In this document: positions 31,548 through 37,856 of the stretch, in pieces
Layout: each line of letters opens with the position of its first letter
Numbering within the stretch: position 1 is the first letter of the stretch
Assembly: GCF_014062315.1 (NCBI RefSeq)
Contig: NZ_JACGLT010000015.1
Location: 1 to 64,000, forward strand
Origin: Gelidibacter maritimus
GTDB lineage: Bacteria > Bacteroidota > Bacteroidia > Flavobacteriales > Flavobacteriaceae
Reading direction: 5' to 3'
DNA length: 64,000 nucleotides
Position numbers and translations under genes: made by a program
Notes under the pieces: generated by a model
Seen by the model: only the letters and a program-made list of their open reading frames with translations
What the model was told of the DNA's origin: nothing
Database searches by the model: none

Positions 31548-32588
31548 TTACAATGTTGCCAACCTGCTATTATACAGATAGTCGCCGTACATGCTTCTAT
31601 AATAAACCTTCCGTTCAATAGACTCAATAACCGGTGTGGCAAAATCGACATCATACATTTGTCCCATCACATTTAAACCTCCTGGACTAAAGACGTTAAT
31701 CTCCATCAACTTAGAGCCTACAATATCGATGCCTACTAAAAACATGCCGTCTTGGACCAATTTTGGTCTGACAATTTCGGCGAGCTCCATAATCTGATCG
31801 GTCATCTTTACCTTTTCAGGTTTGCCACCGGCATGTATATTGCTTCTAATATCACCAGAGGCATTGACGCGCTGCATTAGGGCATATTGGCCATCGACCT
31901 TTAAAGGCTCGCCATTCATTAAGAAGAGACGCGTATCGCCTCCTTTGGCCTCGGTAAGATACTCTTGGGCAATCACAAATCCGTCACGACAAATAGCATC
32001 AATAGTTTGTGAAAGATTGTGTTCATTCTTCTTATCCATCATAAATACATTGGTTCCGCCCGATCCTTGTAAAGGCTTGAGAATCATTTTCTGTTTTTGC
32101 TCTTTAAAGAACTCCTTTATCTCATTATGGTCTCGCGTAATTATTGTTTTAGGACGTAGAATTTCGGGGAAGTGCTGAAAGTACATTTTATTAACTGCTC
32201 CCGCCAAACTGCTTGGGTGGTTGAGCACCAACACGCCATTGGTCATAGCTATTTCGCCGAAAATAAAAGCCGCGTTATAAGCCCAATCGCGTTCATTGAT
32301 CTCATCTGCAGGATTATTTCGTAAAAATAGAACATCCAAGTCTTTAGAAGATAAGTTTACAAATTCTTCTTTCTGAATAGCCTTGAAATAGGTTTCTTCA
32401 CTTTTAAAAGTACGCTCACTTATCGTTTTACATCGCACAGATAGATGCCCTTTTGAAGCATACGACAACTCGCCAACACCAATAAAAAACACTTCATGCC
32501 CTCTTTTATAGGCAGCGTAACCTAAAGCTGGCGTGGTATAATTCCACTTTTCTGTAGCGTGGTCATTTATTATAAATCCTATTTTCAT
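31548..32588 (-). CDS. ATP-grasp ligase, glutathione-synthetase-like
   Basis: This 346-residue protein resembles prokaryotic glutathione synthetase GshB. An N-terminal domain (1-130) has MKIGFIIND and FLRNNPADE. The ATP-grasp glycine loop is ILKPLQGSGGTNVF, then RLFLMNGEPL, and the Mg-binding end is LMEINVFSPGGLNVMG. It forms an amide bond between a carboxylate and an amine with ATP. No gamma-glutamylcysteine synthetase is nearby, and this lineage also carries a bacillithiol gene (bshA). The true substrate may therefore not be gamma-glutamylcysteine. It is last in a three-gene operon, 11 bp after the DUF1704 gene. Confidence 0.85.
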   Translation of the reverse strand: MKIGFIINDHATEKWNYTTPALGYAAYKRGHEVFFIGVGELSYASKGHLSVRCKTISERTFKSEETYFKAIQKEEFVNLSSKDLDVLFLRNNPADEINERDWAYNAAFIFGEIAMTNGVLVLNHPSSLAGAVNKMYFQHFPEILRPKTIITRDHNEIKEFFKEQKQKMILKPLQGSGGTNVFMMDKKNEHNLSQTIDAICRDGFVIAQEYLTEAKGGDTRLFLMNGEPLKVDGQYALMQRVNASGDIRSNIHAGGKPEKVKMTDQIMELAEIVRPKLVQDGMFLVGIDIVGSKLMEINVFSPGGLNVMGQMYDVDFATPVIESIERKVYYRSMYGDYLYNSRLATL

Positions 32589-32599
32589 TTTGTCTGATT

Positions 32600-34438
32600 T
32601 TATTTCACAAGATCAACAATATCCATCCCCTTTCTTAACTTTTTCAAACGTTCCTTTACCTCATTACGTTCTAAAAAACTTGGAAGTATAGGTTGTTTCA
32701 AAACATCTCTGTAAAGCAGTTCTTCAACTAAAGCAATATGAGTGGTGTTGAACTTACCAGTGTATAGCGGTTCAAGCTTCCCACCATTTTTAAGGTAGCC
32801 CATCAAATCTATTAGTCCGGCAAGATAAACCGCATCTTTAGTAAGTCCGCCGCCCCGATAAACACGCATGCTAATATAATAGGCCACACGATCAGGAAAA
32901 GCATACGACTTTCTTAGTAAATTAAATGTTTCGATAAAGCTGGCATTCCCAACCATGGCGTTTACAGCAATAACGCGTCCTGCCAATAATCTTAAACGGT
33001 TAACGGTCAGGCCTCCAACCAGATATTCAGCAATAACGGCCAAGCCTTCCTGTAATTGGTCGTAACCTTCAAATCCGCTGTACATCTGTCTTAAGGGTTG
33101 GCTTTTGCCATTGCAATAAGTCAATATATGGGTGCCTACTTCGTGTTGGATCAAAGCATCACAGCGTTTAGCATCCAAATTCATTTCATTATTAATAAGC
33201 AACTTGGACTTGGAGACCATGATGCCAGCAACATCATCCCTTACTTCAATACCAAGATCCATTTCCGGAAATCTTTGAGCGTAATAATCAATCTCCTTTT
33301 GTGCATGTTCTGCAAATTCGGCACTATTAAAACGTTTGGAGCCTTGAATGACCTCTCCTGCTGGATAAGTTTTTAGGATGTGTTGTGCCGCAACCAAGAC
33401 ATCTTTCCGGATGACTCCGTAAAGACTTTCACCAATAAATCTGAAATTATCAGTGCCACGCTCTTCGAGCATAATCAATTGTTTTTCAATTTCTAAACGT
33501 TTTCCTCTTAGAATAAAAGCAATTGTTGGATCTTCAACTAAATCAATTGGAATATTAAAAAGCTTACGCTTCTCCAACTCGGGGTCTATCGCAATCAATC
33601 TGTATTTAAAAGATGGTGTGACCGTATATTCATTCTGCTCAAACTTGTCCCATTCTTCGTTACTGTTTACCGGTGTCACTCGTAAAAGAAAAGACATCCG
33701 TTCACTAATTTCTGAAATTTTAGTATCTGAGGAAATGGTGACAGCATCAATATGGGTCTTGCCAAGCATTAAATAATTTTCAAATGCATCGGTGGTTTGC
33801 ACTCGTATAAACTCGTAAACGGCCCTTTTAATAGTTTCAGAAAAAATAGTGTAGAACTTTCTGAAAAATAACGAATACAATTCATCAGTTTCAGAGTTTT
33901 GATAAACCACAGGTACTGAAATACCAATAATTAAAATTCCTGATTTCTTAGTCGTAGAGATGTCTGATAACGGAGATAAATGCTTAGGGTGTCTAAATTG
34001 CGTAGGAATTATTTTAGTGGTTACAATAGGAAGTGTCTTTTTTATTTCGCTGAATCCCTCCTTAAGCGCATTTAAGGTTTCTGTAGATTTGTCCTTTGGT
34101 CCGTAAATTTGAAATTGATTTTTAAGCGCCTCCTTATCGGGCCATAACTCTAAAATCAGAAAAGTTTCAAACTTTTCAGAAACGATCAATCGTATGGCTT
34201 CCAATAGATGCGAAATATCTATCGATTCTTCAACAATAAGATAAGATGCTTGCGTTTTAAGAAGTCTTGAAAAATAAACATCTAAATCCTTGTACCTGTA
34301 GACACAAATAAATGGTAGCAATTTGTCAATATGCAACAATCCGTTTTTTGGCAATTCGGTATTTACAGGAACATTGTCAGCGATATTTTTGCAAATGTTT
34401 TGAACAAGTTCAGCATCTATATGGTAATCTTCCGTCAT
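32600..34438 (-). CDS. DUF1704 'QEGLA-motif' zinc carboxypeptidase-like protein
   Basis: This 612-residue protein is of the family named after 'flavohemoglobin expression-modulating QEGLA motif'. The candidate metal site is H432-E433-V-G-T-H437 (HExxxH), and the QEGLA motif itself is at 463-467. The N-terminal half (1-330) is poorly conserved and may bind the substrate. From memory, eukaryotic relatives (MATCAP/TMCP) are metallo-carboxypeptidases that remove the C-terminal tyrosine of tubulin with the same HExxxH motif. A bacterial role in trimming a C-terminal residue is an inference. It abuts the amidohydrolase gene with no spacer. Confidence 0.85.
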   Translation of the reverse strand: MTEDYHIDAELVQNICKNIADNVPVNTELPKNGLLHIDKLLPFICVYRYKDLDVYFSRLLKTQASYLIVEESIDISHLLEAIRLIVSEKFETFLILELWPDKEALKNQFQIYGPKDKSTETLNALKEGFSEIKKTLPIVTTKIIPTQFRHPKHLSPLSDISTTKKSGILIIGISVPVVYQNSETDELYSLFFRKFYTIFSETIKRAVYEFIRVQTTDAFENYLMLGKTHIDAVTISSDTKISEISERMSFLLRVTPVNSNEEWDKFEQNEYTVTPSFKYRLIAIDPELEKRKLFNIPIDLVEDPTIAFILRGKRLEIEKQLIMLEERGTDNFRFIGESLYGVIRKDVLVAAQHILKTYPAGEVIQGSKRFNSAEFAEHAQKEIDYYAQRFPEMDLGIEVRDDVAGIMVSKSKLLINNEMNLDAKRCDALIQHEVGTHILTYCNGKSQPLRQMYSGFEGYDQLQEGLAVIAEYLVGGLTVNRLRLLAGRVIAVNAMVGNASFIETFNLLRKSYAFPDRVAYYISMRVYRGGGLTKDAVYLAGLIDLMGYLKNGGKLEPLYTGKFNTTHIALVEELLYRDVLKQPILPSFLERNEVKERLKKLRKGMDIVDLVK

Positions 34439-35269
34439 TTAATTAGAATATATATTGTAAAAGTTTGAAGCATGCTCTGGCAATTGCTTTTTTAAACCTT
34501 TCCTGATGGCAGAAACAACTTCTGGATAGATTATTTGTCCAAGTTCATCACAATAAATCTTGGCTACTTCTGTTGCCAAAACCAAAGTGTTGTTAAAGTT
34601 GCTGGTAATAAATTTCAAAAAATAGCCATTTCCCTGAAAGGTATCATTTATTTTGGCCGTTGGCGGAATCTCATTTGGTAACTTAATTTGTGATAACTGC
34701 TCTCGCCATTCTTCTACGGCATTTTCAAATCGTTTATTGTCTATATTTGAGGTGCCTAAGTTCCACGTTGGTACTTCTCTGTCCCAGCGCTTCCAATTAT
34801 AACTATGCAGATCATAAACTACACAGCATCCGAATTTGAGTTCCAGTTTTCTAATTAAGCTATGGACCACCTTATAAAAATTCTGATGCTTTTCAAGGCT
34901 TTTTGACCTTTCGTCTTCAGTCAAAGGTTCTTTCCAGAGCTGTTTGCCCCAAGCGTCATCATAAATAGCCTCATCAGGCGCCCTGTTTAGGTCGTATTCA
35001 AATCTTGAATCCATTCCGGAAATCACGATAGGATGTGGTTTCAACATGGTTTTGGTTTTCGGATCCTCCTCGTACCAGCGCTCGTATTCTGAATGTAAGC
35101 ATTTAGACCATAATTCTTTCCTGAACTGGTGTCCATTATGCACTGCAGCACATGCATAAGGTACATAATTGTCTATTTTTATAGTAAACGAATAGTCAGA
35201 AGCAACTGCGTGAAACAGTTCTTCGTCTTCTATTTTTGAAATAATTTCTTGAATTGAGAGTTTTTGCAT
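34439..35269 (-). CDS. N-formylglutamate amidohydrolase-like protein
   Basis: This 276-residue member of the FGase family has CAAVHNGHQFRKEL near residue 36, SGMDSRFEYDLNRAPDEAIY near 83, CCVVYDLHSYNWKRWD near 145 and the C-terminal LVLATEVAKIYCDE. The metal-binding His and Glu of the family seem present. Classic HutG acts in histidine breakdown, but no hut genes are near. Here it leads an operon with the DUF1704 peptidase and an ATP-grasp ligase, so hydrolysis of another N-acyl or amide bond is more likely. Confidence 0.85.
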   Translation of the reverse strand: MQKLSIQEIISKIEDEELFHAVASDYSFTIKIDNYVPYACAAVHNGHQFRKELWSKCLHSEYERWYEEDPKTKTMLKPHPIVISGMDSRFEYDLNRAPDEAIYDDAWGKQLWKEPLTEDERSKSLEKHQNFYKVVHSLIRKLELKFGCCVVYDLHSYNWKRWDREVPTWNLGTSNIDNKRFENAVEEWREQLSQIKLPNEIPPTAKINDTFQGNGYFLKFITSNFNNTLVLATEVAKIYCDELGQIIYPEVVSAIRKGLKKQLPEHASNFYNIYSN

Positions 35270-36410: not shown

Positions 36411-37856
36411 TTAAGATTTCAAATCGAAAGTTTCTGTTGGGTCTTTGTCATCTTCATATTCCAACATATTTTCACCATCGGCTATTATGGAACAAACGGT
36501 AGCATCTCCCGTAACGTTAACCACAGTTCTAAACATATCTAGAATACGATCAACTGGAAAAATAATGGCAATCCAAGCAGGATTGAGTCCTACGGAATCC
36601 AACACGATAATTAGCATCACCAAACCTGCGCTAGGCACTGCTGCAGAACCTATTGAGGCCAATGTAGTGGTCATGACCACGGTAAGTTGCTGACCTATGG
36701 TTAGATCAATCATATGCAACTGAGCTAAAAATATCACTGCTACGGCTTGGTATAAGCTTGTTCCGTCCATATTGACGGTGGCACCAATAGGCAGGACAAA
36801 GCTGCTAATTTTTTTATTGACACCAAGGTTTTGTTCAACACATTCCATAGTGACAGGAAGAGTTGCTGCACTGCTCGATGTTGAAAATGCCAAGGTCTGA
36901 GCTGGACTCATGGCTTTAAAAAAGCCAACATAAGGTATCTTTTTAACAAAGGACTTCAAAATGGCAGGATAGGTTATAAATATCATAATTAACAGGCCGC
37001 TAAGCACAGTTAAGGAGTACCAGCTTAGACCTTTAAATATCTCGACAACCTTTCCAATGTCATCCCCAGCCATTTTACTGACAACACCAGCCAATAAGGC
37101 AAAAACAAAAAAGGGCGCTGCTTGCATTACCAAATCCACCATTTTGAGAAACACCTCGTTGATACCATCGACTAATTTTAAAACGGGTGCCGATTTTTCA
37201 TCCGGAATAAACAAGAGGCATACACCAAAGAAAATCGCGAAAAATATGATTTGCAACATCAACCCGTTATTGGAAAGTGAGTAAAAGAAATTGTCGGGAA
37301 CAATATCAATTAACGGCTGCAGAGGTGTTGTTTCCTTGCGTTGATCGGCGGTGGCAATCTTATCTGAAACGGATACTTCTTTTAAATCTTGCTTAGTTAA
37401 TTCCGAAATCTCTTGTGCTCTTTCAAAATATTCGGGGTCTTCTAAATAATTGATATCATCTTTTATTTCATGGCCCTCAGAACTGGCCCATATTTCATAA
37501 TTGATACGATTGTCTATGCGGCTTTGTTCGTCTATGAGCTTGCCAGGTTTTATGGTATTTACTAAAACAAGCCCTAAAGAAATGGCTAAAACTGTAGTCA
37601 GAAGATAAATAAGTAAAGTTTTACCACCCATTCGTCCCAAGCTTGAAGGATCCCCAATATTTGCAACACCACCAATTATGGAAAACAATACCAAAGGCAC
37701 CGCAATTAGTTTCAGTAAATTAATAAAAATAGTCCCGAAAGGATCAATCCAGTTGATGGTAAATGCGCTCCAACCCATGTAACTGGACAGTAACGCCCAT
37801 AGGATACCAAGGACCATTCCAATGACAATTTTCCAATGTAGTGCTAATTTTTTCAT
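36411..37856 (-). CDS. Dicarboxylate/amino acid:cation symporter (DAACS)
   Basis: This 481-residue transporter is of the glutamate/aspartate symporter family. The re-entrant hairpin motif FSTSSSAATLPVT and the NMDGTSLYQ motif in helix 7 are both intact. The C-terminal substrate site region has PVDRILDMFRTVVNVTGDA. An unusual hydrophilic loop of about 90 residues (around 105-195) lies between helices 3 and 4, rich in Asp and Glu. It should import acidic amino acids or dicarboxylates with Na+ or H+. Repeat-bearing DNA lies upstream. Confidence 0.92.
   Translation of the reverse strand: MKKLALHWKIVIGMVLGILWALLSSYMGWSAFTINWIDPFGTIFINLLKLIAVPLVLFSIIGGVANIGDPSSLGRMGGKTLLIYLLTTVLAISLGLVLVNTIKPGKLIDEQSRIDNRINYEIWASSEGHEIKDDINYLEDPEYFERAQEISELTKQDLKEVSVSDKIATADQRKETTPLQPLIDIVPDNFFYSLSNNGLMLQIIFFAIFFGVCLLFIPDEKSAPVLKLVDGINEVFLKMVDLVMQAAPFFVFALLAGVVSKMAGDDIGKVVEIFKGLSWYSLTVLSGLLIMIFITYPAILKSFVKKIPYVGFFKAMSPAQTLAFSTSSSAATLPVTMECVEQNLGVNKKISSFVLPIGATVNMDGTSLYQAVAVIFLAQLHMIDLTIGQQLTVVMTTTLASIGSAAVPSAGLVMLIIVLDSVGLNPAWIAIIFPVDRILDMFRTVVNVTGDATVCSIIADGENMLEYEDDKDPTETFDLKS

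Follow-up and report, generated by a model that had tools for sequence, protein, structure and literature searches.

A three-gene module of a ligase and two hydrolases in Gelidibacter maritimus and its possible role in an amide-bond cycle

In the animal N-acetylaspartylglutamate (NAAG) cycle, the ligase RIMKLA is paired with GCPII and with aspartoacylase, a member of the AstE/AspA family, and the eukaryotic ligases acting on protein tails, TTL and TTLL, are ATP-grasp enzymes. The glutathione synthase GshB couples an acyl-amino acid (gamma-Glu-Cys), through its carboxylate, with a further amino acid, and members of the N-formylglutamate amidohydrolase (FGase) and AstE/AspA families cut small acyl amino acids. 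Gene neighbourhoods combining ATP-grasp enzymes and peptidases were reportedly described by Iyer et al. in 2009, with a general prediction of peptide ligases standing beside peptidases. We analyzed a stretch of 64,000 nucleotides of Gelidibacter maritimus (contig NZ_JACGLT010000015.1, positions 1 to 64,000; hereafter the window), in which an FGase-family hydrolase, a MATCAP-type zinc carboxypeptidase and a GshB-like ATP-grasp ligase are encoded side by side.

A first-pass annotation of this DNA had described three abutting genes; all three are intact and lie on one strand between 31548 and 35269, separated by exactly 0 and 11 bp. The HExxxH site that it had attributed to the DUF1704 protein was found as HEVGTH at residues 432-437, together with E464 in the motif QEGLA. 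The features of the operon are the following:

34439..35269, minus strand: gene 1, FGase-family zinc hydrolase, 276 aa (PF05013, 51 bits for a gathering cut-off of 28.9)
32600..34438, minus strand: gene 2, MATCAP (DUF1704, 'QEGLA') zinc carboxypeptidase, long form, 612 aa (PF08014, 303 bits for a cut-off of 27)
33719..34438, minus strand: N-terminal ~240 residues of the MATCAP protein, predicted degenerate FGase domain without FGase motifs (hhalign)
32630..33646, minus strand: MATCAP catalytic domain (Pfam), with HEVGTH at 33128-33145 and QEGLA at 33038-33052 (positions computed from residue numbers)
31548..32588, minus strand: gene 3, glutathione-synthetase-like ATP-grasp ligase of the PRK12458 subfamily, 346 aa (PF02955/PF02951, 179/44 bits)

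The conservation of the trio, for which the first-pass annotation had proposed a survey, was analyzed in two samples of Bacteroidota. The first gave 21 MATCAP loci in 18 of 39 relatives; the second, an even sample of 395 genomes across the phylum, gave 19 loci in 19 genomes. As genome G000 was common to both, 39 distinct loci in 36 genomes were obtained. A contig scan reached only 11 close loci. The ligase was present at 37 of the 39 loci and all three functions at 36, the hydrolase being an FGase in 30 and an AstE-like protein in 6. Nine Gelidibacter loci carry FGase, long MATCAP and ligase, and eleven loci carry a separate ligase, FGase and short MATCAP (the ligase of L039 is cut by a contig end). 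At three loci (L040, L041 and L060) FGase and MATCAP form a single protein of 663-667 aa beside the ligase. Five loci have FGase, long MATCAP and ligase with a distant FGase (29-34% identity), and six have long MATCAP, ligase and an AstE/AspA-like hydrolase in place of the FGase (Pfam-tested in L032 only; the hydrolase gene of L070 lies on the opposite strand). The remaining configurations are two intermediates (L061 and L062), two partnerless MATCAP genes (L031 and L055) and a long MATCAP with a ligase only (L035), in a genome that has the full set elsewhere. Counting loci from all sources, the FGase::MATCAP fusion was read without an internal stop four times (L040, L041, L060 and L078). Candidate fusions of the same type in L030, L036 and L064 were rejected, a stop codon separating the two parts in each, as was a MATCAP-ligase fusion in L071, which a three-frame reading resolved into two genes in different frames.

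Three further observations were made at these loci. In the partnerless short MATCAP of L031 (6907-8058) the metal-site motifs are altered to HEIGVN and QAGLA, and this protein is likely to be a dead enzyme; its genome retains a second cluster, of the long type (L032). In Marixanthomonas spongiae (L049, 8828-9870) the ligase is in two reading-frame pieces, possibly through a frameshift or a sequencing error. Some operons with ligase, FGase and MATCAP encode an additional protein of ~109 aa (L033 9107-9436, L034 9357-9692, L064 5612-5938), which by eye we take to be TerB-like and for which no Pfam match was obtained with the L033 and L064 copies.

The ligase and MATCAP occur together far beyond Gelidibacter. 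Within the 395 genomes, the PRK12458 ligase was found in 18, of which 17 scored over the cut-off and one, G040, just under it (396.5 versus 408 bits). All 18 have MATCAP in the same cluster, and the nineteenth MATCAP genome, G222, has no ligase. The next-best ligase matches, at 215 and 194 bits, are in G230 and G113, both genomes without MATCAP. Fisher's exact test on this co-occurrence gave p 3e-30, a value that overstates independence because the genomes share descent.

Trees and identities separate two lineages, I and II, and the window operon combines both. By tree, its FGase belongs to lineage I, the one fused to MATCAP in other species, and the Gelidibacter FGases are 61-71% identical to those encoded at the corresponding site of other Flavobacteriaceae chromosomes. 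The Gelidibacter MATCAP and ligase belong to lineage II and share 25-31% and 30-34% identity, respectively, with the native partners at that site. Intermediates were found in two other genera (L061 and L062), where a native ligase and a native FGase are followed by a lineage-II MATCAP and ligase, 68-72% and 83% identical to those of the window. It thus appears that a lineage-II pair took the place of the native MATCAP beside the native FGase and that the native ligase was lost in Gelidibacter. The simplest way to account for this replacement is that the two pairs have equivalent functions and are both able to work with one FGase. The MATCAP and ligase distance matrices of 35 operons correlate with r = 0.93 (0 of 2000 permutations as high), a value inflated by species descent and by the depth of the split between the lineages. 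The comparison excluded duplicate records, eight near-identical Gelidibacter operons, L061 and L062 (two ligases), L039 and L049 (cut or split ligases), L031, solo genes and L080.

The long MATCAP proteins (32 sequences) carry ~240 residues ahead of the Pfam domain. When their N-terminal profile was compared by hhalign with that of the FGases (37 sequences), a match of E 6.7e-8 was obtained (probability 94.6, 165 columns); the best of 30 column shuffles gave E 0.03. In six control comparisons E was 0.15 or worse: four set the N-domain against AstE, short MATCAP, ligase and solo MATCAP, and two set the FGase against AstE and short MATCAP. The expected match between MATCAP profiles gave 1.7e-59. 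The resemblance is to lineage-I FGases (E 3.1e-8), the match to lineage-II FGases being not significant (E 0.054). In 11 of the 32 proteins, aligned to the FGase::MATCAP fusions, the loss of FGase motifs was read residue by residue: R89, D93, N95, R96 and H155 are lost in 11/11 and D153 is replaced by Glu in 11/11, exceptions being H44, still His in 2, E68, Glu in 1, and E234, Glu in 4. Judged by these profiles, the first ~240 residues of the window MATCAP constitute a degenerate FGase domain. The long form has the appearance of an ancient FGase::MATCAP fusion in which the FGase part is dead; most loci of this kind have a separate gene for an FGase or an AstE-like enzyme alongside. The domain assignment rests on profiles because AlphaFold yielded no usable model of this part: the MATCAP model (mean pLDDT 56) is better in its C-terminal part, 18 of the first 25 ten-residue blocks lying below 50. 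In Foldseek this weak model nonetheless matched human MATCAP (7z6s/7z5g) with a best E of 2.4e-9 and a TM-score (target) of 0.61.

The trio is also found outside Bacteroidota. MATCAP relatives occur in 126 plasmid records, 79 of them from Sinorhizobium, and ten regions were opened. Six show the Gelidibacter order FGase, long MATCAP and ligase (S. meliloti twice, Aminobacter, Mesorhizobium, Rhizobium sp. 007 and a record filed as Roseateles sp. XES5 and marked unverified). In Photobacterium sp. GJ3 the ligase accompanies an FGase::MATCAP fusion; the set of Phyllobacterium zundukense is broken, and two Pseudoalteromonas have only MATCAP. Against the QEGLA equivalog TIGR02421, the S. meliloti and Photobacterium members tested reach the cut-off of 338.65 bits and the window MATCAP lies under it (300.7 bits). 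Combined, the co-occurrence, the fusion, the degenerate FGase domain, the congruent trees and the same order in another phylum strongly support a functional link between the three genes, which the first-pass annotation had only suspected, and we consider it very probable that they work together as one module.

As to what the module does, we tentatively favour, at somewhat under even confidence, a single amide-bond cycle, probably cytosolic, that acts on a short peptide. Its ATP-grasp ligase would activate the carboxylate of an acylated amino acid (acyl-AA1) and join a second amino acid (AA2) to it with ATP, giving acyl-AA1-AA2. MATCAP, acting as a carboxypeptidase, would take AA2 off again to leave acyl-AA1, which the FGase, or the AstE/AspA-like enzyme in other species, would hydrolyse to free AA1, probably an acidic amino acid. 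A possibility for the window operon is that its FGase docks on the head of MATCAP, the inactive FGase-like domain, in lieu of the covalent fusion found elsewhere. What we infer in this scheme is the direction of the reactions, the identity of the acyl group, AA1 and AA2, the docking, the location and the small-peptide target. The cycle explains the FGase::MATCAP fusion and the AstE/AspA-like stand-in for the FGase. The co-occurrence, the degenerate domain, the correlated MATCAP and ligase distances and a ligase closer to GshB than to RimK also count in its favour, as does the joint rise of two P. damselae genes described below. Human relatives of MATCAP remove C-terminal Tyr and Glu and shorten glutamate chains, according to the available part of PMC10499314.

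The three enzymes appear to keep the residues expected for activity. In MATCAP, H432 is conserved in 48/48 aligned sequences and E464 in 47/48. K134, K171, R220, R240 and R248 are invariant in 47/47 aligned ligases, and H44, E68, R89, D93, N95, R96, D153, H155 and E234 in 37/37 aligned trio FGases, where they would be the catalytic residues; in both families we take the invariant positions to correspond to residues with active-site roles. FGase and AstE presumably share a fold; hhalign detected no significant match between the two profiles (E 0.15).

Several observations weigh against the acyl-dipeptide cycle. L035 and the named loci L048-L050 have MATCAP and ligase without an adjoining FGase or AstE-like gene, and solo MATCAP genes exist (L055, L076 and L077). 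Genome G018 has a lineage-I-like FGase (L083 5471-6304, contig C49, after a gltP-like gene) with no MATCAP or strong ligase match, on a contig that ends ~0.7 kb further on. The operon contains no enzyme making acyl-AA1, and the cycle leaves unexplained the acyl source, the loci lacking an FGase and the sharing of one operon by synthesis and breakdown. The structure models (mean pLDDT 36.9 for the FGase) are too weak for testing the docking or the N-terminal fold, and no substrate of a bacterial member was found in the available parts of the literature searched.

The main rival is a reversible C-terminal tagging of a bacterial protein, in which the ligase would extend the tail by an amino acid that MATCAP and FGase would take off again; we regard it as unlikely. 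The eukaryotic tail ligases TTL and TTLL likewise belong to the ATP-grasp family, and a ligase and an eraser in the same operon would suit a switch. The solved relatives of MATCAP (7z5g, 7z6s) act on protein tails, removing Tyr, Glu and polyglutamate (available part of PMC10499314). However, the window ligase has the GshB N-terminal domain and is nearer glutathione synthase (221 bits) than the RimK family (87 bits; TIGR00768, 87.3 for a cut-off of 143.4), no TTL family being among its Pfam matches; with the Pfam RimK domain PF08443 it scores 70, above a cut-off of 21. The FGase and AstE/AspA families, moreover, work on small acyl amino acids, and the window operon has no further gene as a possible target. 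The first-pass annotation had proposed a reversible C-terminal modification or a peptide cofactor, and the general idea of an amide ligase with hydrolases able to undo the bond fits the families, whereas the ligase scores speak against a protein C-terminus. A bolder version seems doubtful to us, namely that in this operon we see a bacterial precursor of the tubulin tail code, with an ATP-grasp writer and two zinc carboxypeptidase-type erasers acting on a protein C-terminus or peptide signal; MATCAP would have been born fused to an FGase-type eraser, the FGase part would have decayed into a docking domain and the catalytic part would then have passed to eukaryotes.

The surroundings of the operon are conserved within Gelidibacter. 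The MATCAP gene is found at full length and 79-91% identity in eight named Gelidibacter loci, and the order of the trio is the same in 8/8 other surveyed Gelidibacter genomes and in a further named locus, L045. The flanking genes ung, mutS2, DCC1, EamA, gltP and aroC also keep their order across these Gelidibacter, L023 having one additional open reading frame between EamA and gltP. Species-variable further genes lie between gltP and the module in L036 (3324-5742) and L083 (2902-5256). A promoter scan of the locus was uninformative (26 promoter-like sites for 17.4 expected, standard deviation 4.7), and a terminator scan gave no terminator-like site after the ligase gene. The flanking symporter is as follows:

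36411..37856, minus strand: Na+/dicarboxylate symporter (SDF, GltP-like) flanking the module at the aroC-mutS2 site of Flavobacteriaceae (PF00375, 398 bits)

The symporter, whose association with the module is suggestive only, bears on a second alternative, that of glutamate or peptide storage or osmotic adjustment, with the ligase building short acidic peptides and the hydrolases freeing amino acids upon a change of salinity. In Photobacterium damselae RM-71 at 1% relative to 3% NaCl, RS17020 ('GshB') is up 38.4-fold and RS17025 ('QEGLA') 27.5-fold, and RimK is also up 52-fold, according to the available part of PMC10308900; from their tag numbers we infer that the first two are neighbours. 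These expression data come from one organism and one condition, and the symporter, part of a flank shared with aroC, was not seen in the stretch listed for loci whose FGase is distant or replaced by an AstE-like gene. We consider storage a doubtful function for the module.

A sulfur or persulfide-linked peptide pathway is improbable. It is suggested by a two-domain rhodanese inside the operon, Pfam-tested in L030 (9567-10391), L061 (9316-10137) and L064 (4770-5609), by candidate genes of similar size in L039 and L065 and by the DCC1-like thiol-oxidoreductase gene flanking copies at the aroC-mutS2 site. However, the operon genes of Gelidibacter, of the fusion loci and of the Alphaproteobacterial operons read follow one another with no additional gene between them, and DCC1 is on the opposite strand and belongs to the conserved flank.

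We give still less credit to an ordinary second step of glutathione synthesis with an unrelated protease and hydrolase alongside. The PRK12458 subfamily (NF009110), over whose cut-off of 408 the window ligase scores 427.6 bits, carries the NCBI name 'glutathione synthetase'; the nearest solved relative is E. coli GshB (PDB 1gsa, E 6.5e-37), whose aligned Lys and Arg positions are kept. Two lineage-I ligases tested pass one glutathione synthase model, NF003573 (281.4 and 284.6 bits), and fail the other, TIGR01380, and the authors of the P. damselae study discuss RS17020 as glutathione synthetase in the available part of PMC10308900. The window ligase, however, is below both equivalog cut-offs (TIGR01380, 209.9 for 299.05; NF003573, 221.3 for 272). 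As for the first step, the E. coli-type enzyme PF04262 was found in 0/47 genomes searched, the host included, and glutamate-cysteine-ligase family 2 (GCS2) in 18/47. GCS2 is more frequent with MATCAP (9/9 Gelidibacter and 8/27 other MATCAP genomes, versus 1/11 without MATCAP), but 19 of the 36 MATCAP genomes searched have neither family, and the single GCS2 gene of the host lies in a different cluster from the trio. BshC, which we take to be an enzyme of the bacillithiol route, is present in the host genome, which therefore probably makes bacillithiol. The three genes are, moreover, linked and no bystanders.

Other GCS2 genes were noted in passing. The host gene is part of a second putative peptide-ligase cluster (L082 2376-7309, contig C17) with a class-I glutamine amidotransferase-like protein, an unassigned 398 aa protein, an esterase-like protein and a protein whose only match is sub-threshold, to ATP-grasp R2K_2 (22.4 for 26.2 bits). 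A different FGase context was seen in G015 (C14), G021 (C1), G222 (C3), G247 (C5) and G208 (C42), where a weaker GCS2 gene (71-101 bits) stands ~0.4 kb from a match to FGase and apart from MATCAP.

The first-pass annotation had also stated that neither hut nor glutathione-first-step genes are present; this holds within the window and fails genome-wide, where hutH (over its cut-off on contig C34), a second FGase-family gene (C7:82883-83527) and GCS2 occur, and the argument from absence is limited to the window because hutH and the second FGase lie elsewhere. A histidine-utilization role was set aside, as hutH is on another contig and an NCBIfam search of the window FGase at E 0.001 matched no family, including the HutG equivalog. 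An anti-phage defence system was rejected, no PADLOC family being matched by the three proteins at E 0.001; a PHROGs search gave only one weak match (ligase, 22 bits).

The literature searched, which covered few subscription papers, yielded no functional account of the trio; the component families are known, and the function of the module, the degenerate FGase domain and the hybrid operon are undescribed there. The genes that rhizobia, flavobacteria and at least one Photobacterium carry under the annotations 'glutathione synthetase', 'flavohemoglobin expression-modulating' and 'N-formylglutamate amidohydrolase' appear to form a single pathway that has gone unrecognised, and the present names therefore mislead: the transcriptome paper PMC10308900 already interpreted its copy as glutathione synthetase. 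Solving the pathway would reveal what the family that trims human tubulin tails does in bacteria, and because Sinorhizobium meliloti carries the trio on pSymB, it can be tested in a tractable laboratory organism.

In conclusion, each enzyme of the operon has a described counterpart from which it departs. The FGase is over the cut-off of PF05013, the Pfam family of HutG (TIGR02017), and differs from HutG by the lack of an NCBIfam match and by the location of hutH on another contig. The ligase shares with GshB (1gsa; TIGR01380) the N-terminal and ATP-grasp domains and the aligned Lys/Arg positions; unlike GshB, it falls under both equivalog cut-offs, and PRK12458 was found only in MATCAP clusters in the 395-genome sample. 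The window MATCAP has the HExxxH and EG metal site, the R...RG...KD..YL.G pattern and the Foldseek fold of human MATCAP/TMCP (7z5g, 7z6s), whereas it carries a degenerate FGase domain and lies in an operon with a ligase, with no tubulin. The tubulin tail cycle (TTL/TTLL, CCP and TMCP) likewise combines an ATP-grasp writer with zinc carboxypeptidase erasers, the window ligase being GshB-like rather than TTL. Compared with the NAAG cycle, the carboxypeptidase belongs to another family and the ligase is GshB-like, but the same three activities are brought together, an ATP-grasp ligase, a carboxypeptidase and an acyl-amino-acid hydrolase, and at six loci the AstE/AspA family itself takes the place of the FGase.

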